Assembly: GCA_001780725.1 (NCBI GenBank)
Contig: MFIM01000027.1
Span: 1 to 48,840 of the forward strand
Source: Candidatus Giovannonibacteria bacterium RIFCSPLOWO2_02_FULL_45_28
Lineage (GTDB): Bacteria > Patescibacteriota > Minisyncoccia > UBA11713 > 2-01-FULL-45-33
Reading direction: 5' to 3'
Length of the DNA stretch: 48,840 nucleotides
The position numbers and the translations under genes were made by a program. Below are positions 5,877 through 46,212 of the stretch, in pieces. The stretch's first letter is position 1; each line of letters opens with the position of its first letter. The notes beneath the pieces were generated by a model, which worked only from the letters and a program-made list of their open reading frames with translations, did not search any database and had not been told where the DNA came from.

Positions 5877-8789
5877 TTACTTCAAAAGCTCAAGAATCGG
5901 CCAGAGAAGCAACGCGAATGGGCTTTTGTTTTGCAGAAATGAGCTCGGCATAAATTGTTTGCATGCCGGATCTTGATAATTTTTAGTGCAATAGGTCTTG
6001 CATTCTTCTGGAGTTGTGCAACCGCCCGGCCCGCTAAAATTCGTCGCTGGCGGTGGAGTCGGTGTTGATCCGTCTCCAACATATGGTTCCGGGACGGCGT
6101 AGGCGGCGCAGGCCGGATCAGTGTAATGGGTGGTACAATAAGTCGTGCATTCTGCCGTGCTTTGGCAACCTCCGGGACCGCCGCCAGAACCTCCGCCTCC
6201 GCCGGAAGAAGCGCTACATTTTCCATTACTGCCTGCATTAAAGATTGCTTGGACTTCAGGCGCGCTTAGTGCTCTATTGTATACGGAGACCTCGTCGATG
6301 AGACCGGAGAAAAGCTCTGTAATTCCAAACCGGTCATCCCACGCGCCAAGCGTAAAGGGAGCCGGGCTTGTTGTGTTAGCATTTGCGGCTTCGGCGGTGC
6401 CATTCAATTGGCCATCTATATACAAACTCATTGTTCCGGAACCGATTCTTGTCGCAGCAACATGATGCCAGGCCCCTGAACTTATTGGCGCGGAAACACT
6501 GCCTCTGGGCTTGTCGGCGTTGCCGACAGTTTCGCCAGCAAAAAATTCTATTATGCTTTTATCTTTGCCGATAACCAGCCAATAACCGGCCCCGTCGCCG
6601 CTCATCGGATAGTTTGATTTTCTGATGATATTGCCCTTGGATGAGCCGCCGCCGTCCCAATTAATCCAAGCTTCCAATGAGAATGGGCCTGTTCCAAAGT
6701 TTAACTTTTCCGAATTTTCATCTTTAACGTATTCGCCGGATGCGTCAAATTTAAACGCATTCCCAACTTTTCCAGGAGCGAGGGTCACGCCGCTAACCGC
6801 ATTTGACAATACATCATCATCCACCCAACTCACTAAACCTGATGGGGGTGGAACACAGCTTTGGGTTGGAGGTGGTGGTTGCGGGAACGGCGGCACAACA
6901 GGATTTCCGCCTCCGCCACCTCCTCCGGGACCTTTACAGACGCCTTCATATTGCACCCCTCCGCCCTGGTCTTCGGCATGACATGCACTTACCCAGGTAT
7001 TATTGTCATTTCCGCAAACCGGGTCGGCAATATCCGAGCACGGCTTATCTGGCTGGCCATTTCTTATACAAACACCCTCATGAAGAATTTCTGTGCCTTG
7101 TTGCTTTGCGTGGCATTCATTAAAATATGTTGTTTCAACGCCCGATGGCGCTCCTTTTCCATTTATTCCGCAGACATAAGAGGCGCTCATACCTTTACTT
7201 ACGCACTCCAAAAAACTCGTACCGGGGTCGGTGGGAAAATCGCCTCCGCCAAAACCGCAAGCCTCCGGATTAGATGTGCAATAAGCCTCGCATTCTTCGC
7301 GGGATTTGCATCCTCCGGGGCCTTCAAAGCCGCTGCCTTCAAATTTAAATTGTCCGCGCATTTCCTCCGGCAGCATTGATTCAATGCATTCGCGCATTTT
7401 TTCACCGATTTCCGGACCCCCGAAAGATAAGTTTTTACCGGGTTCCTGCCCAGAAATACCGGGCGCTCCTATAATTTTCTCAACGCATTCTTTCACTCCG
7501 GGATCGGCGTTTTCCAGTGATTCTCTCATAAACTTCATTCCTTCCTCCGCGCGTTTTAAGTCTTCTTCGCTAATCAGTCCATTGTCTTTGGCGAAAGCAA
7601 GGCAAACTTCTTGGTTCGCTGGATTTTGGCAGAATGTCTGGCAAGCTCTTCCGCGGCAGCCTCCGGGACCCTTGCCACCTGTTTTTTTAATTATTTCTTT
7701 TTCTTGATCTGAAAGCAGGCCCGCTTCTTCGGCGAAAGCCACGCATGTATCAAAATTATTTTCATCCTCGCAAAACGCCTCGCAGGCCTCTTTGGTTTTA
7801 CATCCTCCCGGCGTTTTGCCTTGCTTCATCAACGGTATAAATTTTTCCGCTTCCTGCAGTTCTTGCTCGCTCATAAAGCCCGATTCTTTTGCAAAAGCAA
7901 AACATTCGTCAATATGCTCCGGACTTTGGCAATAAGCCTCGCAGGCCTTTTTGTTGCGGCAATCTCCCGGAAATTTTTTACCTGCGTCTAATGCGGCTTT
8001 GACTTTTTTGGCTTCAGAAAGTTCGCGCTCGCTCAAAAAACCATGATCTTCTGCGAATTTAACGCATTCGTCAATTTTCCCGATATCATTGCAGTAGCTT
8101 TCGCAGGTGGCTTCGGTTTTGCACCCTCCCGGTCCGCCGCCGCTCTTAACAACTTCTATAAATTTTTTACCACGCTCAATTTCTTCCCGCGGTATCAAAT
8201 TGTGTTCTTCAGCAAACGCAACGCAGCGCTCCATATTCGCCGGACCGTCGCAATATTTTTTGCACGATTCTTCGCTTGAGCAATTGCCTAATTCGGCGAT
8301 GGGATATTTGAGTTCCTTTTTAGGTTCCACAGAAGTCGGCGCTGGAGTTGGAGCCACGACGCTAGGGGTCGGAGCCGTAGCGGGCGGCGGAGGCTCCTTG
8401 CTCAATTTTTTCACTTGAGCTCGGCCGCTCGCATCCGTAGAGGAAATTTCAAACTCTGTTTCTCCGCCACGGCAGTCAACAATCCTGCCCTTAACTGTTT
8501 TGGCCAAATCCGAATCGTTGACCGCGCCGATATTATCAATTTTCCTGCTTTTGGGACAACCCCCGAGGTCGCCACTGTAAGGCGGCTTATCGGTTGAAAA
8601 CTCTAAAGCGAAAGACTGAATGCCTTCAGGGTCGCCAAATGTTAACACAAAAAGATCGCTGCTTTTATCTTTTACCAGAGATAAAGTGGCGTTCCCCGTG
8701 GTCTGGGCTTGGGCGATAAAAAAAACAAACACAAGCAAGCCGATTAGGCTTAATTTACTTAACTTGCTTAATTTGCTTGATTCGCTCAT
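5877..8789 (-). CDS. Secreted Cys-repeat / Kazal / LamG surface protein
   Basis: A 970-residue exported protein. It has a hydrophobic signal segment (about 13-29) and a Pro-rich linker (133-155). Five full modules of about 45-50 residues follow the pattern C-x4/5-C-x2-[YF]-C-x8/9-C-x2-FA-x3-G-[LF]-[IL]-[SP] (from about 169 to 410), with shorter modules at about 493-511 and twice near the C-terminus. Two Kazal-like regions (about 529-574 and 583-618, with PVCGNDNNTW) and one LamG/concanavalin-like domain (about 650-855) lie between. Kazal domains usually inhibit serine proteases and LamG domains bind glycans or proteins. The start overlaps the upstream small gene by 4 bases, and a metzincin gene follows. 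The repeat module is not one I can name. Confidence 0.75.
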   Translation of the reverse strand: MSESSKLSKLSKLSLIGLLVFVFFIAQAQTTGNATLSLVKDKSSDLFVLTFGDPEGIQSFALEFSTDKPPYSGDLGGCPKSRKIDNIGAVNDSDLAKTVKGRIVDCRGGETEFEISSTDASGRAQVKKLSKEPPPPATAPTPSVVAPTPAPTSVEPKKELKYPIAELGNCSSEESCKKYCDGPANMERCVAFAEEHNLIPREEIERGKKFIEVVKSGGGPGGCKTEATCESYCNDIGKIDECVKFAEDHGFLSERELSEAKKVKAALDAGKKFPGDCRNKKACEAYCQSPEHIDECFAFAKESGFMSEQELQEAEKFIPLMKQGKTPGGCKTKEACEAFCEDENNFDTCVAFAEEAGLLSDQEKEIIKKTGGKGPGGCRGRACQTFCQNPANQEVCLAFAKDNGLISEEDLKRAEEGMKFMRESLENADPGVKECVEKIIGAPGISGQEPGKNLSFGGPEIGEKMRECIESMLPEEMRGQFKFEGSGFEGPGGCKSREECEAYCTSNPEACGFGGGDFPTDPGTSFLECVSKGMSASYVCGINGKGAPSGVETTYFNECHAKQQGTEILHEGVCIRNGQPDKPCSDIADPVCGNDNNTWVSACHAEDQGGGVQYEGVCKGPGGGGGGGNPVVPPFPQPPPPTQSCVPPPSGLVSWVDDDVLSNAVSGVTLAPGKVGNAFKFDASGEYVKDENSEKLNFGTGPFSLEAWINWDGGGSSKGNIIRKSNYPMSGDGAGYWLVIGKDKSIIEFFAGETVGNADKPRGSVSAPISSGAWHHVAATRIGSGTMSLYIDGQLNGTAEAANANTTSPAPFTLGAWDDRFGITELFSGLIDEVSVYNRALSAPEVQAIFNAGSNGKCSASSGGGGGSGGGPGGCQSTAECTTYCTTHYTDPACAAYAVPEPYVGDGSTPTPPPATNFSGPGGCTTPEECKTYCTKNYQDPACKQFMPSSFLQNKSPFALLLWPILELLK

Positions 8790-40800: not shown

Positions 40801-41377
40801 TAACGACATTATAAACGCGCGGAAAATTCTCTCTGCCTCCGGGCTTTGGTCAATTGACGAGAACGGGAAGCTAATCGTTCAGGAAATTGAAACCAAAAAA
40901 CTCACTGTAACAGGACAGCAGGGGATTACTATTTACGACCGCGTTACAGGACAACCCGTTTGTGTTTATTCCGAAAACGGAGTTTTGAAGTCGGAAGATG
41001 GGGAGTGTTGGGCCGCCGAAACTGGCGGGAAAACATCCGATGTTTCCGCCGAAGGCGGATCCGCCTCTGGCGGAGAGGAGCTAGTTTCGGATACTGACCC
41101 TCCAACAATCTCAATTTTGGGCAACAATCCTTCCGCCATTAATGTAGGCGGAACCTATTCTGACATGGGGGTCACGGTAACTGATAATATTGATCAAAAT
41201 TTGGGATACACGGCTTCTTTAGATGGCGGGCTTGAACTTTTGCAGGGAGATGGACTTCAAATTGATACCTCAAAGGCTGGCGAACATATAATTATTTACA
41301 CGGCAGCGGATTCGGCAGGGAATACCGCTTCGTCCACAAGAACAGTAGAAGTAGTAGAAATTTATGGAAATCAGTAG
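34853..41377 (+). CDS. Giant HTH-anchored fibre-like surface protein
   Basis: About 2,174 residues. Order: an excisionase/MerR-like helix-turn-helix (YLSASEAARLCNYHRIYVGQ), a linker full of palindrome-derived peptides, a membrane helix (about 135-153 from the upstream TTG), a further linker, then a long beta-rich stalk with about 13 VGIGT[TAS][SAN]P-type repeats, a domain starting CVDIAETYPISEDASAGDIM that is typical of the end of such fibres, and a C-terminal Ig-like domain (DPPTISILGNNPSAINVGGTYSDMG, split here as one region). It is probably a cell-surface adhesin or pilus-like fibre. The ATG at 34853 is preferred over the in-frame TTG at 34838 because it overlaps the leader stop; ATG 34862 is also possible. 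Two exact-looking 507-bp tandem units lie at 37166-38179. Confidence 0.75.
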   Translation: MKYMKEKYLSASEAARLCNYHRIYVGQLCRGGKIDCKKFGTDWMVSEESILNYKKELTSKNLSLTPSQGRGKNNTLPFGEGEGWVTEKSSSTLQDIFHAQDKPDDVWDRAILGEKEKEAFWFPEFSLKQWSLGAVSLSSILIAALIFYNAGAIKNSIADAVESVNVSAKNFVTKTSSIPLLAKERMGNVVEFTSLIRRSGEGVVEIFNNFGSSGLELAQNGKDWVSETASAVADEIKNGSALLNKIPDVVADNLIFVEKKALVALSLPKFSLPFTLEDVRLSLSDIKMRFFNNIFAARDYIVFLGLDIKKVALDFVSSPSPSGKTLGVFGDSTPSVEEDGEQKPSPLIVSKNLPLTPSQGRGKNNTLPFGEGEGGVTEKSPPFLQGEGLERSRGVDESSIISRVLSSINITQRFQELENRLTSNLSLLISNIEKRIPPNVQNPVVFLTASAPSPIRNDPPQQISGVSAGFGDFSQGISTGGNLSATGNVTLGDDAKTASIASSVWDITSAGAASGFISLSTNSLSASTFNLSGLLTTGGFIATASSTIIGDLTFQNATSTGYLSVTGSATSTFANGIKLTGGCFLLLDGTCAGTGSGSGLTGTIGQVAYFSGTDSAVGTSTIVISTSGNVGIGTAAPQTILDVLGTASSTLYLANIGSESAPAYSFAGGSNGGFFQNPSGTIGISTGGAARVTFASSGLSMGVNGTAASPSIAWSADGDTGIFRDSSDQLAFTAGGIEALRFIEVNSIVTSYFNAGNVGIGTTSPSATLSVAGNTYLDSNLITYSSSTAANLTISYQRAATTTIPQSINAFAIGTTTGPTAPILSIDGLNGRVGIGTANPLVPLQLNGNIFHINNDNAEIGLGSSRSFNRLLVDSDTNVGLVGKKNVWIGIDSDNSGTDATFGIVANDDWLGGSETPLFTVTEAGSVGIGTTSPASLLSVAGNTYLDSNLITYSSSTAANLTISYQRAATTTIPQSINAFAIGTTTGPTAPILSIDGLNGRVGIGTANPLVPLQLNGNIFHINNDNAEIGLGSSRSFNRLLVDSDTNVGLVGKKNVWIGIDSDNSGTDATFGIVANDDWLGGSETPLFTVTEAGSVGIGTTSPASLLSVAGNTYLDSNLITYSSSTAANLTISYQRAATTTIPQSRNAFAIGTTTGLTAPIFSIDGLNGRVGIGTAAPSATLTVLGSGTLLSLQSGGGVAFSVSTSQMLFDADNQPFAIGENADYSLGHNSTTDNFEIVDGSTIGTNVRMVISSSGNVGIGTTSPAATLSVTGNTYLDSNLITYSSSTAANLTISYQRAATTTIPNLAINAWSIATSTSNTPVFTISSTSSPFGLIGIGTSSPSYTLSIAGNEYLTGGLGVGKATTTAGVIESSGLILSGGVFAALGTATSTFSGDINLPTGKCYQVNGTCTLMSAITSLNGLTGTTQTFASNDLISIVSPAAGTVHNFYGSTTPTFGWLHATSSTASFFTGALGIGTTSPWGLLSVNPDGISGPAFVVGSSTATNFIVTNGGNVGIGTAAPTAGLMLDIRGDMSVNNDGYYAFAEDKVNWSIHGRTTDSTTMLGSALKTTIIPGSGTTEGFAIAGAGLASSFEARNDGQIYMKGNVGIGTTSPATTLSVAGNTYLDSNLITYSSSTAANLTVSYQRAATTTIPINTVYAWSIATSTTASPLFTFNTNGPYATTSINGGFVLNNGAVNYDSSSGIISADSIQTGPMGFDTDAGIVSWIDMPSSTTTANIVNSYSAMLDSTAILTIYGTTTTSGNITYGHVGIGTTSPTIARLSVQGNIAAFGCIRSATSTYSIGPASCVDIAETYPISEDASAGDIMMVGPDGKLKKATDRAGLIGVVSSEPAILLEGPVAFFGSQINNQTLEHKTGSMAPIALAGRVPVKVSAEGGPIKPGDRITISSAPGVGMKATTSGQTVGIALEPYDSGEIGKIIVFINLGYSKLDSGLSQALDGNGGLIVDQASGKMKSSYTLDMDNNDIINARKILSASGLWSIDENGKLIVQEIETKKLTVTGQQGITIYDRVTGQPVCVYSENGVLKSEDGECWAAETGGKTSDVSAEGGSASGGEELVSDTDPPTISILGNNPSAINVGGTYSDMGVTVTDNIDQNLGYTASLDGGLELLQGDGLQIDTSKAGEHIIIYTAADSAGNTASSTRTVEVVEIYGNQ
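35027..35120. repeat. PSQGRG palindromic repeat, copy 1
   Basis: About 93 bases that recur at 35900-35993 (offset 873, in frame) with about three differences. It contains two hairpins, ccccttcccaaggaagggg and accctcccctttggggagggt. It encodes LTPSQGRGKNNTLPFGEGEG within the linker of the giant protein. Confidence 0.85.
35387..35446. repeat. Pair of short palindromes in the fibre linker
   Basis: Hairpin cctctccttgcgaaggagagg (35387-35407, minus its outermost pair) and hairpin cctccttaataaggagg (35430-35446). Both are read through in frame (LLAKERMGNVVEF, SLIRRSGEG). Confidence 0.6.
35809..35875. repeat. Double-palindrome element in the fibre gene
   Basis: Outer stem ctcgccgtc (35809-35817) / gacggcgag (35867-35875). 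Inner arms aacactcggtgtt (35824-35836) / aacaccgagtgtt (35848-35860). GGGAAA precedes and GAGGAG follows. It encodes SGKTLGVFGDSTPSVEEDG. Confidence 0.85.
35900..35993. repeat. PSQGRG palindromic repeat, copy 2
   Basis: Near copy of 35027-35120. It lies 25 bases after the double-palindrome element, so this linker has collected several inserted repeats within 1 kb. Confidence 0.85.
37166..38378 (+). repeat. 507-bp tandem duplication plus partial third copy
   Basis: Two units (37166-37672 and 37673-38179) encode identical 169-residue blocks; the antisense translations are also identical, so the DNA is essentially unchanged. A partial third copy (38180-38378) differs at a few positions (for example T to G in the SIN/SRN codon). 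Each unit holds two VGIGT repeats and the segment GNTYLDSNLITYSSSTAANL. In-frame, so copy number can change fibre length. Confidence 0.9.
41024..41079. repeat. Composite palindromes at the fibre C-terminal region
   Basis: The arm aacatccgatgtt (41032-41044) within ggcggga...tttccgcc is followed by ccgccgaaggcgg, atccgcctctggcgg and GAGAGGAG. It looks like a double-palindrome element whose second half was replaced by CCGCC/GGCGG-type repeats. It encodes GGKTSDVSAEGGSASGGEE, placed just before the Ig-like domain. Confidence 0.65.
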
Positions 41378-41993
41378 AAACTTATGGAAATTGATTTTGA
41401 TTGCGGCGCTGATTTTGGGTGCGGCGAGTTTCTATAAGTTTCAATTTATTTCCACAAGTTTCAATGATTCCAATGGCTCTCAACCAGTTTCAACCAATTT
41501 CAACGAATATCGCAACGCAGATTTCAAATTTTCTTTTCAGTATCCTAAAAACCTAACTCTCCAGGAATTTGATGATGAAAGGGGACATGTGATTTTGTTT
41601 GAGGCGAGCGGGAAAACATCCGATGTTGAATCCCCAAAAACATCGGATGTTGAGGAGCTCGCCGGCTTCCAAATTTTCATAGCTCCTTTCGACGAAGAAG
41701 GCCCAATAACTCCCGAACGCATAAAAAAAGACTTGCTTAATATTGTCGTGGAAAATCCAACTCCGACAAAAGTCGGCCCTTCGACAGGCTCAGGGCAAGC
41801 TGACGCTTTGAGTTTTGTCGGAGAAGGGGACCCGCCTACCGGCGAGGCAGGCGGCTTTAAAACCGCCGAGGTCTGGTTTGTTTATCCCCCCGAACCCTAC
41901 CCCAACGGAAATTATCTTTATCAAGTCACCGCGAAGCTGGAGGACGCAACTTTAATAGAAGAGATTTTGAAAACATGGAGATTTAGCCGCTGA
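41364..41993 (+). CDS. Small membrane-anchored protein carrying three palindromic insertions
   Basis: A 209-residue protein with an N-terminal membrane helix (about 8-24) and a conserved-looking C-terminal half (FKTAEVWFVYPPEPYPNGNYLYQV and LEEILKTWRFSR-like end, here LIEEILKTWRFSR) resembling PsbP-like or similar small lipoprotein folds. The frame NADFKFSFQYPKNLTL is typical of such Patescibacteria proteins. It contains the double-palindrome element (41603-41663), a CCCTTCGACAGGCTCAGGG-type repeat (41761-41823) and a CCGCC repeat (41832-41854), all in frame. It overlaps the giant gene by 14 bases and its stop codon lies in the left arm of the GxxExxY cassette. Confidence 0.6.
   Translation: MEISRNLWKLILIAALILGAASFYKFQFISTSFNDSNGSQPVSTNFNEYRNADFKFSFQYPKNLTLQEFDDERGHVILFEASGKTSDVESPKTSDVEELAGFQIFIAPFDEEGPITPERIKKDLLNIVVENPTPTKVGPSTGSGQADALSFVGEGDPPTGEAGGFKTAEVWFVYPPEPYPNGNYLYQVTAKLEDATLIEEILKTWRFSR
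41603..41663. repeat. Double-palindrome element in the 209-residue gene
   Basis: Outer stem ggcgagc (41603-41609) / gctcgcc (41657-41663). Inner arms aacatccgatgtt (41615-41627) / aacatcggatgtt (41639-41651). GGGAAA precedes and GAGGAG follows. Encodes SGKTSDVESPKTSDVEEL. Confidence 0.85.
41761..41823. repeat. CCCTTCGACAGGCTCAGGG-type nested palindrome
   Basis: Outer stem ctccgacaaaa (41761-41771) / ttttgtcggag (41813-41823), 11 bp perfect. Within it is cccttcgacaggctcaggg (41777-41795), a short palindrome family seen in many bacterial genomes. Encodes PSTGSGQADAL. Confidence 0.75.
41832..41854. repeat. CCGCCT/AGGCGG palindrome
   Basis: CCGCCT (41832-41837) pairs with AGGCGG (41849-41854). 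It is read in frame as DPPTGEAGGF and lies 8 bases after the previous palindrome. Confidence 0.55.
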
Positions 41994-42029
41994 TACTTCG
42001 CTGATTACTACGCAGATAAAACGCTGATC
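41987..42029 (+). repeat. Left GCTGAT array of the GxxExxY cassette
   Basis: Begins CCGCTGATA and repeats CGCTGAT, CGCAGAT and AACGCTGAT up to the ATG at 42031. The right array (42421-42467) is its inverted counterpart. It overlaps the last two codons and stop of the preceding gene. Confidence 0.7.
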
Positions 42030-42030
42030 T

Positions 42031-42435
42031 ATGAAAAACAAAGTAAAATATTTTTTATACGAGAGGGAGTCCTACCTTATACGAGGGGCGTGTTTTGAGG
42101 TATGGAAAGAATTTAAAGGTATGTTTAAAGAATCGGTAATAGACCGCGCTCTAAACATCGCGCTTGAATCACGCGGCTTAAAAGTTGAATCGCAGAAGAG
42201 AATTGATATCTACTTTAAAGATAAAAAGGTGGGCACTTATGTTCCCGATAAAATTGTTGAAGGCAAGATTCTGCTCGAGTTAAAAGCAAAACCATTTATT
42301 ACTAAACAAGATATTGAACAATTTTGGAAGTACCTTAAGGGCTCACAATACAAACTTGGGTTTCTTATAAATTTTTCACCCACGAGATTACAAATTAAAC
42401 GCGTCGTATATGATACTGCCCGTAAATCAGCGTAA
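42031..42435 (+). CDS. GxxExxY-family protein
   Basis: A 134-residue protein of the GxxExxY family, small proteins of unsettled function with a PD-(D/E)XK-like look. Seen are YLIRGACFEVWKEF, the signature region GMFKESVIDRALNIAL (a variant of GxxExxY with D-R in place of Y), and ILLELKAKPFITKQDIEQFW, containing the E-x-K typical of nuclease-like folds, then YLKGSQYKLGFLINF. It is a compact cassette bounded by GCTGAT-rich inverted arrays, which suggests acquisition as a unit. Its 3' end overlaps the start of the LamG gene by 26 bases. Confidence 0.8.
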   Translation: MKNKVKYFLYERESYLIRGACFEVWKEFKGMFKESVIDRALNIALESRGLKVESQKRIDIYFKDKKVGTYVPDKIVEGKILLELKAKPFITKQDIEQFWKYLKGSQYKLGFLINFSPTRLQIKRVVYDTARKSA

Positions 42436-44593
42436 AATCAGCGTTTTTATCAGCATGATATCAGCGGTCGTTGTAGCCGCCTTTCTTTTTATCGTATCAC
42501 CCAATAGTGCGGCGGCCGCCTTACTCATAAATCGCCCCTTATATATCGGCTTAAATAGCGGCCTCGTCGGCTACTGGTCTTTTGATGGCCCGGATATGGC
42601 GAACGTCACCGCTTACGACCGCTCGGGTAACGCGAACAACGGCACTCTCACCAACGGCCCCACTCGAGCAGTAGGCAGAATCGGCCAGGCGCTGGAGTTT
42701 GACGGGGCAGATGACAGAGTTGATATCAGCTCCCCCAGTTTTAATGGCGCAGAACCATTTACAATCAGCGTATGGATAAAACCTGCGAGTTTGGGGGAAG
42801 GAAGTTTGGGACGCATTATGTCGTTTAATAATGCCACTACTGATGACTTAAGAATGGGTGTCGGTCCATTAGTAAATTTTTCCCCCAATGGTGGTGCGGG
42901 AGGGGATTGTGACTCTAACAATATTACTCTTAATGTTTGGGTTCATGTGGTGTTTACGCTTTCAAGCACAGGTGTTTGTACATTTTACATTGATGGAGTG
43001 AATCAAACTTTTGATAGTTCTGGTCAAACAATCGGGGCTTCAACAAGTTTTTCCATAGGAAATTTGGTAGGTGGCGTAACTAGAACTTTCGACGGTCCCA
43101 TTGACGAATTCCGTTTCTACAATCGCATCCTCTCCCCAGACGAAATAAAACGCCTCTATAAAATCGGGGCGACGCTGAAAGTCAATAAACCCAACTATGT
43201 GGGGTTGGATAACGGCCTCGTCGGCTATTGGTCTTTTGACGGGCCGGATATGGCGGGGAACACCGCGTACGATAGAAGCGGGCAAAACAACCACGTCTCT
43301 TCTACCGGGTCAAATATGCCTACTCGCTCGGCTGGAAAAATAGGGCAGGGACTGAAGTTCGACAATGCCAATGATTATATTGAGATTACTTCCTTTGCGC
43401 GCGGAGGCAACTTTACCTGGGCGGGATGGATTTTCCCCATAACCACCGGTGGGGGAGATAAAGGCAGACTATTCAATAATGGCATCACAGGGGCTATACA
43501 GGTTGGTTTGTATGTAAGCGGATCGCCTACACCATATATAGAATTAACAACCAATACTGGAGTATGGAGAAGCCCAAGTGGGAGCATAGAACTGAATAAA
43601 TGGCAACATGTAGCAGTTGTTTTTGATTCCACCTCTACGAATAACGATCCTGTTTTCTATATCAATGGATCTTTAGTATCAACATCGGAGTTTACTACGC
43701 CCACGAATACGCCATCGGACAATGTTTTGCTTACTATTGGAAATAATCCTAATACCGAGCTTACTAGGACCTTTGACGGAACTCTTGATGAAATGCGTGC
43801 CTACAACCGCGCGCTGTCGGCGGACGAAATCAAACGCCTCTACAAAATCGGGGCGACGCTGAAAGTAAATAAACCTAACTACGTGGGCTTAAATAGCGGC
43901 CTCGTCGGCTACTGGTCTTTTGACGGCCCGGATATGTACAACAACACCGCGCTTGACCGCTCCGGTCAGGGCAACAACGGCACGCTCACAAACGGCCCCA
44001 CGCGCAAAGTTGGCCGCATCGGCCAGGGGCTGGAGTTTGATGGGAGTAATGATTATGTGGATATTGCCAACGAAAGTAACTTTGATTTTGAGCGTACCCA
44101 ACCATTTTCATATTCTCTATGGACAAAACCTAAGGCTGGGGATACCAGTATTTCCTTAGCGCTTGGAAAAATTTTAGATTCTGGAAATTTCACTGGATGG
44201 GCACTTCTTACAAATTACGATTATAGTTCTAACACCGAAGTAGCCGGCAGATTAGCTGTAGCACTTGTCAATATCTCCGGTACCACAAATGCTATTGGTA
44301 TTGAGGCTGATTCAAAGATCAATGATGGAGGATGGCATCATTATACTGTTACATATGATGGTTCAAGCTTTGCAAGTGGTATAAAAATCTATGAAGATGG
44401 TATATCACTTGCTCTTAATGTTGCTTCTGATAGCCTTACCGGTTCGATACTTAATAACGTTAATGTAGAAATCGGTGATAGAGATAGTGGTGCGAGTTCC
44501 TTAAACTATCCCGGCCTTATCGACGAAGTCCGCATCTACAACCGCGCGCTTTCCGGCGATGAAATCAAGCGGCTCTATAATTTGGGACGGTAG
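42410..44593 (+). CDS. Exported protein with three LamG domains
   Basis: A 727-residue protein with a signal or anchor sequence (about 12-37) and three LamG/concanavalin-like domains of about 220-240 residues. Each begins near NSGLVGYWSFDGPDM, continues with YDRSG..NNGTLTNGPTR and IGQGLEFDG, and ends with EIKRLY. Linker DNA between domains is nearly identical (43148-43203 and 43831-43884). A surface glycan-binding role is likely. Two starts are possible: ATG 42410, where the N-terminus MILPVNQRKISVF is encoded by the cassette array, or ATG 42455 (MISAVVVAAF). Both lie in the array, so the cassette appears to have replaced the original 5' end. Confidence 0.85.
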   Translation: MILPVNQRKISVFISMISAVVVAAFLFIVSPNSAAAALLINRPLYIGLNSGLVGYWSFDGPDMANVTAYDRSGNANNGTLTNGPTRAVGRIGQALEFDGADDRVDISSPSFNGAEPFTISVWIKPASLGEGSLGRIMSFNNATTDDLRMGVGPLVNFSPNGGAGGDCDSNNITLNVWVHVVFTLSSTGVCTFYIDGVNQTFDSSGQTIGASTSFSIGNLVGGVTRTFDGPIDEFRFYNRILSPDEIKRLYKIGATLKVNKPNYVGLDNGLVGYWSFDGPDMAGNTAYDRSGQNNHVSSTGSNMPTRSAGKIGQGLKFDNANDYIEITSFARGGNFTWAGWIFPITTGGGDKGRLFNNGITGAIQVGLYVSGSPTPYIELTTNTGVWRSPSGSIELNKWQHVAVVFDSTSTNNDPVFYINGSLVSTSEFTTPTNTPSDNVLLTIGNNPNTELTRTFDGTLDEMRAYNRALSADEIKRLYKIGATLKVNKPNYVGLNSGLVGYWSFDGPDMYNNTALDRSGQGNNGTLTNGPTRKVGRIGQGLEFDGSNDYVDIANESNFDFERTQPFSYSLWTKPKAGDTSISLALGKILDSGNFTGWALLTNYDYSSNTEVAGRLAVALVNISGTTNAIGIEADSKINDGGWHHYTVTYDGSSFASGIKIYEDGISLALNVASDSLTGSILNNVNVEIGDRDSGASSLNYPGLIDEVRIYNRALSGDEIKRLYNLGR
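42421..42467 (-). repeat. Right GCTGAT array of the GxxExxY cassette
   Basis: On the minus strand it begins CCGCTGATATCATGCTGAT and continues AAAAACGCTGAT, TTTACGCTGAT, TTTACG, matching the left array in inverted orientation. It supplies the first codons of the LamG protein. Confidence 0.7.
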
Positions 44594-44625: not shown

Positions 44626-44823
44626 ATGTATAACTGGTCAACCGATATAAAAAACCTTAAAAAACACCCGGAAAAATATAAAATCTGGAGGCTTGAACAG
44701 ATGATAAATTTTGGTTTGAATGGTAAAAAATTGAAAGAATTTGAGCTTAATAAATATTTTAACAAACTCAAAATCGATCCGTATCGTCGTAAATTTTTAA
44801 AACTACTTTTGAATGGAAAGTAA
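44626..44823 (+). CDS. Small antitoxin-like protein of an AbiE-type pair
   Basis: A 65-residue basic protein (YNWSTDIKNLKKHPEKYKIW, then RLEQMINFGLNGKKLKE and a Lys-rich end). Similar small proteins lie upstream of AbiEii-type nucleotidyltransferases in Patescibacteria; they are presumed antitoxins. It overlaps the toxin gene by 11 bases. It is likely leaderless. It begins 33 bases after the LamG stop codon. Confidence 0.65.
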   Translation: MYNWSTDIKNLKKHPEKYKIWRLEQMINFGLNGKKLKEFELNKYFNKLKIDPYRRKFLKLLLNGK

Positions 44824-45469
44824 AATTTTAGACGAAAGGCAAATTAAATTTTTAGAAGAATTTCAAAAAATACCATTTTTGAAAGATAATTTTTATCTTA
44901 CCGGAGGGACGGCTCTTGCGGCTTTTTATCTCAAACATCGTTATTCGGAAGATTTGGATTTTTTTTCGGAAAAAGAAATAGATCTTTTAAATTTAGACAC
45001 GTCGTTAAAAAAACTTCAGAAAACATTAAAGCCGAATAAGGTTGATTTTCAGCAAAGCTATAATCGCAACTTATTTTTTTTGAGTTTCGGAAAACATATT
45101 TTAAAAACCGAATTTACTTATTTCCCATTCCTGAGAATAGACAGCAAGGTTTCAAAAAAAGGCATTTCTGTAGATAGCTTGATAGATATCGCGGTAAATA
45201 AGCTTTTTACCATATATCAGAGGGTTGCCGCGCGGGACTATATAGATTTGTATTTTATAATTGAGCGAGAAGACTTTAAAATTAACGACTTGATTTTGAA
45301 AGCTAAAGCAAAATTTGATTGGAATGTAGATCCTATACAGTTGGGGGCGCAATTTGTTAAATCCGGAGAAGCCGAAGATTTTCCAAGAATGATTGAGAAA
45401 ATCAAAACAGCTGTTTGGAGAAAATTTTTTATTGATGAAGCGAAAAAACTAAAGAGAAAAATTATTTAA
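44813..45469 (+). CDS. AbiEii/AbiGii-family nucleotidyltransferase toxin
   Basis: A 218-residue nucleotidyltransferase of the AbiEii toxin family (DUF1814). The GG-[ST]-x..DxD core is YLTGGTALAAFYLKHR followed by SEDLDFFSEKE. The conserved second block is VDSLIDIAVNKLFTIYQRVA, then ARDYIDLYFI, with the catalytic Lys (VNKL) and the RDYIDLYF motif intact. Related toxins transfer nucleotides to tRNA and block growth or phage propagation. The end of the gene directly adjoins a LamG 3'-end remnant. Confidence 0.85.
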   Translation: MESKILDERQIKFLEEFQKIPFLKDNFYLTGGTALAAFYLKHRYSEDLDFFSEKEIDLLNLDTSLKKLQKTLKPNKVDFQQSYNRNLFFLSFGKHILKTEFTYFPFLRIDSKVSKKGISVDSLIDIAVNKLFTIYQRVAARDYIDLYFIIEREDFKINDLILKAKAKFDWNVDPIQLGAQFVKSGEAEDFPRMIEKIKTAVWRKFFIDEAKKLKRKII

Positions 45470-45583: not shown

Positions 45584-45817
45584 ATGATTCCATCCAACAT
45601 TAAGCGGTATTTTTGGGAAGTAGATACGGAAAAACTTAATCCCAAGAAGCGTCCGGAATATATTATTTCGCGGCTATTAGAATACGGCAGGCCCGACGCG
45701 ATCCGCTGGGCATGGAGGTCTTTTTCTAAAAAAGAATGGGGAAAGGCGTTAAAATTACGTGAGGTGTCAAGGAAAAGCAAAAATTTTTGGTTGCCGTTTT
45801 TGTCTAATAAACAATGA
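45584..45817 (+). CDS. DUF6922-like antitoxin of an AbiEii pair
   Basis: A 77-residue protein beginning MIPSNIKRYFWEVDTEKLNP, then YIISRLLEYGRPDAIRWAW and SRKSKNFWLPFLSN. This matches small DUF6922-type proteins that pair with AbiEii nucleotidyltransferases; assigned from pattern memory. It overlaps the next gene by 4 bases (ATGA). It differs from the small partner of the first cassette, so the two cassettes belong to different subfamilies. Confidence 0.65.
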   Translation: MIPSNIKRYFWEVDTEKLNPKKRPEYIISRLLEYGRPDAIRWAWRSFSKKEWGKALKLREVSRKSKNFWLPFLSNKQ

Positions 45818-46212
45818 ATTTTTCTTTGGAAAATATCAGGCCCAATGTCAGGGCTCTGGCGGAAAAATTAAGCGCCAAAAGTTTTATTAGTAAGTTTTAT
45901 TTGGCGGGCGGAACTGCTATCGCACTATTTTTTAATCATAGGCGTTCTGACGATTTAGACTTTTTTTCGGAAAAAATGTTTAAAGGAGTGGCTTTGATAA
46001 ACAATTTAAAAAAAACAGGTAAATTCGAAACACTCAAAACAGACGAAAACACCTTAATCGGCAAATTAAATGGCGTCAAAAGTCTTGCTTATTTTAATGA
46101 CGCAGAATACGATGAAATGCCAGAAATGTATATTGATATTAAATGGCGGGAGGTAAAAAATTTTTTCTTGAAACAAAAGTTGGTTTTAGCCAAAAAGTTC
46201 TTCGGAATTTAA
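45814..46212 (+). CDS. AbiEii-type nucleotidyltransferase with a central deletion
   Basis: A 132-residue protein with the N-terminal core YLAGGTAIALFFNHRRSDDL followed by DFFSE, then an abrupt join LNGVKSLAYFNDAEYDEMPE. In full-length relatives (about 200 residues) the GVK strand is followed by a region with the conserved Lys helix and KDFIDLYFL, and SLxYFxDAExDxMP comes about 70 or more residues later. That region is missing here, at about 46075-46085, in frame. The product has probably lost catalysis. It could be an inactive remnant or an antidote-like paralogue. Confidence 0.7.
   Translation: MNFSLENIRPNVRALAEKLSAKSFISKFYLAGGTAIALFFNHRRSDDLDFFSEKMFKGVALINNLKKTGKFETLKTDENTLIGKLNGVKSLAYFNDAEYDEMPEMYIDIKWREVKNFFLKQKLVLAKKFFGI

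Follow-up and report, generated by a model that had tools for sequence, protein, structure and literature searches.

Can a single small gene that lies between short inverted repeats, with no transposase, be a mobile element, and can it rewrite the ends of the genes on either side of it? The question is raised by a 48,840-nucleotide stretch of DNA from Candidatus Giovannonibacteria bacterium RIFCSPLOWO2_02_FULL_45_28, a member of the Patescibacteriota (contig MFIM01000027.1, assembly GCA_001780725.1), the whole of which is here called the window. At positions 41987-42467 a gene of the GxxExxY family is flanked by inverted arrays of the unit CGCWGAT, and an earlier note on this DNA had described the arrangement as a cassette seemingly placed between two genes. 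Comparison of sequences gives good support to the view that such cassettes are mobile: the same sites are found empty and filled, there are multiple copies per genome, and copies from two host genes, LepA and RecG, are intermixed in one clade.

The left array (41987-42029, forward strand) contains four units, CGCTGAT at 41988, 41999 and 42022 and CGCAGAT at 42011. The right array (42425-42467, reverse strand) contains four mirrored units, ATCAGCG at 42426, 42437 and 42460 and ATCAGCA at 42449. Successive units are 11, 12 and 11 nt apart in both arrays. The 45-nt arms are identical at 33 of 45 positions, where the best of 2000 shuffles reached 22, and the pattern of three units in a row is present at a single site in the whole 886-kb genome, this cassette. 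The gene itself (42031-42435, forward strand; 134 amino acids) matches TIGR04256 and PF13366, a PD-(D/E)XK family. This agrees with the earlier note's picture of a GxxExxY gene between inverted GCTGAT arrays. The 405-bp gene does not, however, fit exactly between them as had been proposed, because its last codons and its stop (42433-42435) are inside the right array.

Both arrays are also part of the neighbouring genes. The upstream gene (41364-41993, forward strand) encodes 209 amino acids with no Pfam match, and the left array provides its last residues and its stop; the TGA (41991-41993) is within the first unit, as the earlier note had it. The downstream gene (42410-44593, forward strand) encodes a LamG (Laminin_G_3) protein of 727 amino acids, the start and signal-peptide front of which are encoded by the right array. 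Two candidate ATGs are in frame, and the array had been said to include both. This is so for the one at 42455; the one at 42410 is just ahead of the array.

What does this junction look like in relatives? In a genome of the same family (G003, locus L149) the upstream homologue ends in ATWKFQ and directly abuts LamG; its TGA overlaps the ATGATG at which the LamG homologue starts, which leaves no intervening sequence, and the junction is therefore empty. In another genome (G005, locus L147), where the neighbour is 70% identical, the junction is filled by a different one-gene cassette, which encodes a four-helix S23 protein (PF05635, 23S_rRNA_IVP). This S23 cassette has inverted phased arrays of its own, and its right array codes for the LamG signal peptide MKNFKLLILIFHFSLLIFNFGARSA. 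The two alleles bear out that the cassette was inserted between two genes and that it provides the 5' end of LamG and part of its signal peptide. The idea that the start of the neighbour is rewritten is therefore right, and the event has been repeated with other cargo.

Are such arrays a general feature of these genes? GxxExxY genes were found in 59 of the 380 Patescibacteria genomes searched, a single genome having as many as 11 copies, at unrelated sites; 'four helix bundle' (S23) genes were found in 67 of 116. The genomes compared are mostly, probably, draft metagenome assemblies. Each left flank was scored for its match to the reverse complement of the right flank at 109 Patescibacteria GxxExxY loci, a set weighted toward higher-scoring matches. 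The median was 14.5 within loci, 7.5 when the flanks came from different loci and 7.5 in direct orientation. Scores above 13.5 were reached by 55% of the 109 loci and by 1 of 54 ordinary genes (Mann-Whitney p = 2e-16). A seed-based test placed the repeated units of both flanks above the 99th shuffle percentile at 74% of GxxExxY and 80% of S23 loci, and across the 70 loci of a larger S23 set the inverted score had a median of 16.25 versus 7.5. Outside the phylum, arrays are clear beside GxxExxY genes in Bernardetia, Bacteroides finegoldii and Gemmatirosa, weak in Treponema and ambiguous in the other organisms compared. The phyla with such arrays include Bacteroidota and Gemmatimonadota.

The arrays that the earlier note proposed to look for beside other Patescibacteria GxxExxY genes are thus present, far above controls. 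What did not carry over is CGCTGAT as a general motif, since it is the dialect of one element and relatives have other units. Widespread arrays without the gene had been named as grounds for rejection, and this holds in part: gene-less arrays do exist, one of them adjacent to the cassette in the window, and S23 genes carry arrays too, which has widened the finding rather than refuted it. We give next to no credence to repeats arising by chance or from base composition. The 22 copies of CGCWGAT in the window, where 10.7 are expected, could be cited for this, yet two shuffled versions of the window contained no array of at least four units, and the scores with mismatched loci, direct orientation and ordinary genes were all far lower. 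Together, the shuffles and these three controls rule it out.

The insertion sites have features in common. Between two co-directional genes, 72 GxxExxY cassettes are in sense and 2 in antisense orientation, and for S23 cassettes the numbers are 56 and 2. Median gaps are 50 nt on both sides, measured from the stop of the upstream gene to the gene match and from the match to the start codon that follows. Other cassettes are in frame inside genes, namely LepA (five genomes), RecG (three genomes) and a GT4 glycosyltransferase, and further in-frame sites are before type IV pilin-like proteins, before RuvX, behind RuvC and behind a formyltransferase. The LepA and RecG inserts are between conserved NTPase motifs, and both domains stay readable. 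All eight copies from LepA and RecG fall into one group of the tree (ultrafast bootstrap 98, SH-like approximate likelihood ratio test 34), within which the RecG pair of one family is sister to the LepA pair of the window's family. This suggests a jump between host genes.

One of the LepA inserts is in the window's own genome (L002, contig C20), a second GxxExxY cassette in frame within the GTPase domain. LepA lacks this cassette elsewhere in the genus (L117) and in genomes of the same family (L118-L120). The LepA that carries it also has, further along, a second, gene-less array, QRNSASSLRESAANA, which is present in genome G002 as well. On the right-hand side of two LepA inserts (L002 and L017) the cassette edge repeats the adjoining host sequence in inverted form, giving near-perfect hairpins with stems of 18 nt and 12 nt that differ between the genomes. 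Such hairpins are not general to cassettes, at which they were not enriched (0.29 versus 0.21 per kb).

Turnover was compared across eight genomes of one genus. At one ABC-transporter junction, three genomes have an ATGA overlap and two others have two different GxxExxY cassettes. The junction that precedes tpiA is variously empty, almost empty, or occupied by either of two GxxExxY dialects, by S23, by a DUF559 remnant or by a broken GIY-YIG gene, the last a weak assignment (E 3e-4; 21.3 bits against a cut-off of 22.6). In the ATP synthase operon GxxExxY, S23 and gene-less arrays are present between subunit genes. With those of G003 and LepA, these junctions supply the empty sites that the earlier note had suggested looking for. 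GxxExxY cassettes were also seen at atpA/atpG, atpD/atpC and atpF/atpH (L092 and L107; subunit names read from translations). Operon junctions of one genus (L264, L268 and L271) have GIY-YIG and DUF559 remnants and a gene-less GTCATTGCGAGG element, accompanied by other palindromic ends; these are possibly further cassette types.

What does the cassette gene encode? The window protein scores 97 bits against TIGR04256 (cut-off 35) and 95.6 bits against PF13366, PDDEXK_3 (cut-off 22). Of 100 relatives, 99 retain the catalytic residues D73, E83 and K85, with either E or D at position 83, while E34, Q97 and Y101 hardly vary. AlphaFold2 gives a model of high confidence (predicted local distance difference test 91.8); the closest solved folds, all with template modelling scores below 0.5, are the Cas4-like SSO0001, LHK-Exo, lambda exonuclease and Hjc-type resolvases. 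With the D...(D/E)xK residues on a modelled alpha/beta core, the protein is predicted to be a PD-(D/E)XK nuclease. Relative to locus L005, nonsynonymous divergence (dN) is 0.106 and synonymous divergence (dS) about 2.4, which is saturated; the gene is under purifying selection. GxxExxY relatives were absent from phage records and from two IMG/VR scans, and the protein had no PHROG match, which sets aside a phage or viral source for the cassette; it had no PADLOC match either. Purifying selection, along with the gene's sharing the direction of its neighbours, is what would be expected of an ordinary, immobile resident gene with repeats that act as local regulators or terminators. This is very improbable given the empty sites in the family and genus, the differing cassettes at one junction, the many copies at unrelated sites in one genome and the insertions within conserved genes.

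The repeat unit varies among elements, yet follows a grammar of about [CT][AG]CN[AG]A[TA]. Positions 3, 5, 6 and 7 of this grammar are imposed, because only units with C at position 3, a purine at 5, A at 6 and a base other than G at 7 were extracted; positions 1 and 2 were free. The similarity of a left unit to its own right arm is 0.57, versus 0.36 to the right units of other elements, and each cargo family has a unit style of its own. Unit similarity climbs with protein identity (Mantel r 0.47, 16 s.d. above permutation). GC content is excluded as the source of this correlation, as r was still 0.47 after its removal, with a permutation maximum of 0.13.

Do the arms pair with one another? 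Spacing in register is equal in 57 of 82 cases, versus 18% out of register. Spacer sequences, on the other hand, are similar to one another only at near-background level, and units in register resemble one another no more closely than those out of register. Base pairing of the arms as a conserved property is therefore unsupported by the register test. Mirrored spacing with free spacers is the pattern that would be expected of phased binding sites, not of a base-paired stem. This bears on whether the cassette acts as RNA, its arms pairing in the transcript and the insert being processed or excised as in the intervening sequences (IVS) of 23S rRNA that code for S23. The strong sense bias and the inverted arms would suit such an element, and S23 cargo is shared with the 23S rRNA IVS (PMC4990558). 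We nevertheless consider it improbable, since the spacers are not conserved, being in register adds nothing to the similarity of the units, and none of ten loci has an Rfam intron match. In LepA, RecG and other hosts, moreover, the entire insert is open and read through in the host frame, and RNA excision is unlikely for these in-frame copies.

That the cassettes are mobile we regard as all but certain. For the full reading we think it probable, with modest confidence, that the cassette is a mobile, selfish one-gene element with phased inverted ends, and that its nuclease binds the units and makes the cuts by which the element moves or homes. The ends are inverted arrays of short units phased at about one helical turn, most likely bound as phased sites by the encoded PD-(D/E)XK nuclease. 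By cutting DNA the nuclease would move or home the cassette in cis. The cassette would then persist in sense at stop/start junctions within operons, or in permissive loops of open frames, and be expressed from the host's promoter. Host genes stay readable, since the arrays themselves donate a stop or a start codon, or else coding sequence that does no harm.

The main rival, which we regard as unlikely though less so than an RNA-level element, is that host repair, or another enzyme, acts in trans to move cassettes with array ends, and that GxxExxY, S23, DUF559 and GIY-YIG are interchangeable passengers or helpers. Several observations count against the nuclease as mover, and some of them speak directly for movement in trans. 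The S23 gene lacks a nuclease domain, yet its cassettes end in inverted phased arrays of the same type, and gene-less array pairs occur, so the nuclease may be a passenger. In one genus the same junction can have GxxExxY, S23, DUF559, a broken GIY-YIG gene or nothing. About a quarter of the loci have no detectable array. The empty sites are too diverged for a target-site duplication to be defined, and none is evident at the LepA or window site. Linked inheritance alone would also yield a correlation between unit and protein. Set against movement in trans, the nuclease active site is hardly ever lost, the gene is under purifying selection, unit style is specific to the cargo family, and the unit tracks the protein. 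Concerted change of about eight units across two arms is, furthermore, beyond what linked inheritance explains.

The window has other repeats of this kind. A gene-less pair is present at the junction of a 2179-aa gene and the 209-aa gene. Its left arm (41346-41395, forward strand) has TAGAAAT or TGGAAAT units spaced by about 10 nt, and its right arm (41427-41516, reverse strand) codes for residues of the 209-aa gene that follow its signal peptide. The inverted score of the pair is 19.0, whereas the maximum of 300 shuffles was 12.5. The same genes contain other palindromic coding inserts, REP-like in look, at 41033-41100, 41610-41660 and 41780-41800 (AACATCCGATGTT; CCCTTCGACAGGCTCAGGG). A single-arm phased array of CTTAATT units (8749-8782, reverse strand) is at a stop/start overlap and codes for MSESSKLSKLSKLSLIG, the signal-peptide front of a 970-aa protein. 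An AbiEii-type nucleotidyltransferase (PF08843) is encoded at 44813-45469, and a short AbiEii-like frame is also present at 45814-46212.

GxxExxY genes, which had no assigned role, thereby gain one as cargo of selfish elements, as do 'four helix bundle' genes, and both are frequent in the Patescibacteria genomes searched. Short repeat arrays such as ACCGCAGAGGACGCAGAGG next to such genes may be explained as well. Selfish DNA of this sort alters the stops, starts and signal peptides of adjoining genes, lies in frame inside LepA and RecG although it has no splicing domain, and is replaced or lost among members of one genus. It would be a mobile element with a nuclease as its only tool and an end-code that evolves. 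A broader proposal, to which we give somewhat less than an even chance, is that these are minimal mobile elements of several bacterial phyla, in which element-specific phased end arrays are read by a single protein, nuclease or S23, as the sole mobility factor. They would be fitted to stop/start junctions, with one subclade in frame in the NTPase domains of LepA and RecG.

How do the cassettes compare with known systems? By the presence of a known transposase or recombinase they are not DNA transposons or insertion sequence elements, as PF13366 is the only gene in the window cassette; the earlier note's remark that a mobile-looking unit has no transposase stands, and the mobile reading with it. 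As for family-specific terminal inverted repeats, the ends are inverted with mirrored spacing, but the unit varies from one element to the next. An intein is excluded, with no Hint splicing domain and PDDEXK_3 alone in the LepA, RecG and other inserts, as is a group I or II intron by the lack of an Rfam match in ten loci. Free-standing homing endonuclease genes (PD-(D/E)XK, GIY-YIG or Vsr-like) are similar in having one small nuclease gene, a sporadic distribution, empty and filled alleles of the same site and positions beside or within conserved genes; the cassettes differ in the phased inverted arrays at both ends, their promiscuous sites and the absence of an intron or intein.

Rickettsia palindromic elements are inverted-repeat DNA found in frame within genes and translated. 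To our knowledge, neither they nor palindromic amphipathic repeat coding elements (PARCELs) have a nuclease gene between the arms, an element-specific phased unit or a link between unit and protein. Both (PARCELs, PMC2996958) resemble the cassettes as translated, in-frame inverted-repeat inserts in genes. Miniature inverted-repeat transposable elements and the repetitive extragenic palindromes (REP) and bacterial interspersed mosaic elements (PMC3733652) are also small, with inverted ends and gene-less derivatives. The cassettes, in contrast, have no family-wide fixed end sequence, no transposase or REP-associated tyrosine transposase was seen adjacent, and the gene-bearing form codes for a PD-(D/E)XK nuclease.

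The 23S rRNA IVS, with its S23 reading frame (TIGR02436 / PF05635; PMC4990558), is likewise small and selfish, an insert that carries a single short gene between inverted ends, and S23 is the cargo at this very junction in G005. An S23 frame with inverted ends is found in the G005 cassette and not in the window's GxxExxY cassette. The cassettes differ from the IVS in lying within protein-coding operons and genes, not rRNA, in having phased unit arrays as ends, in the predicted nuclease of the window cargo and in the translation of in-frame copies.

The arrays were undescribed in the open-access literature searched, and as subscription literature was outside the search the novelty is provisional. 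The cassette seems to be a form of selfish DNA not described before, and we regard it as a category of its own because we know of no described family in which a single nuclease gene goes together with phased end arrays specific to each element. If all one-gene selfish inserts were classed together, the cassette would be a variant within that class.

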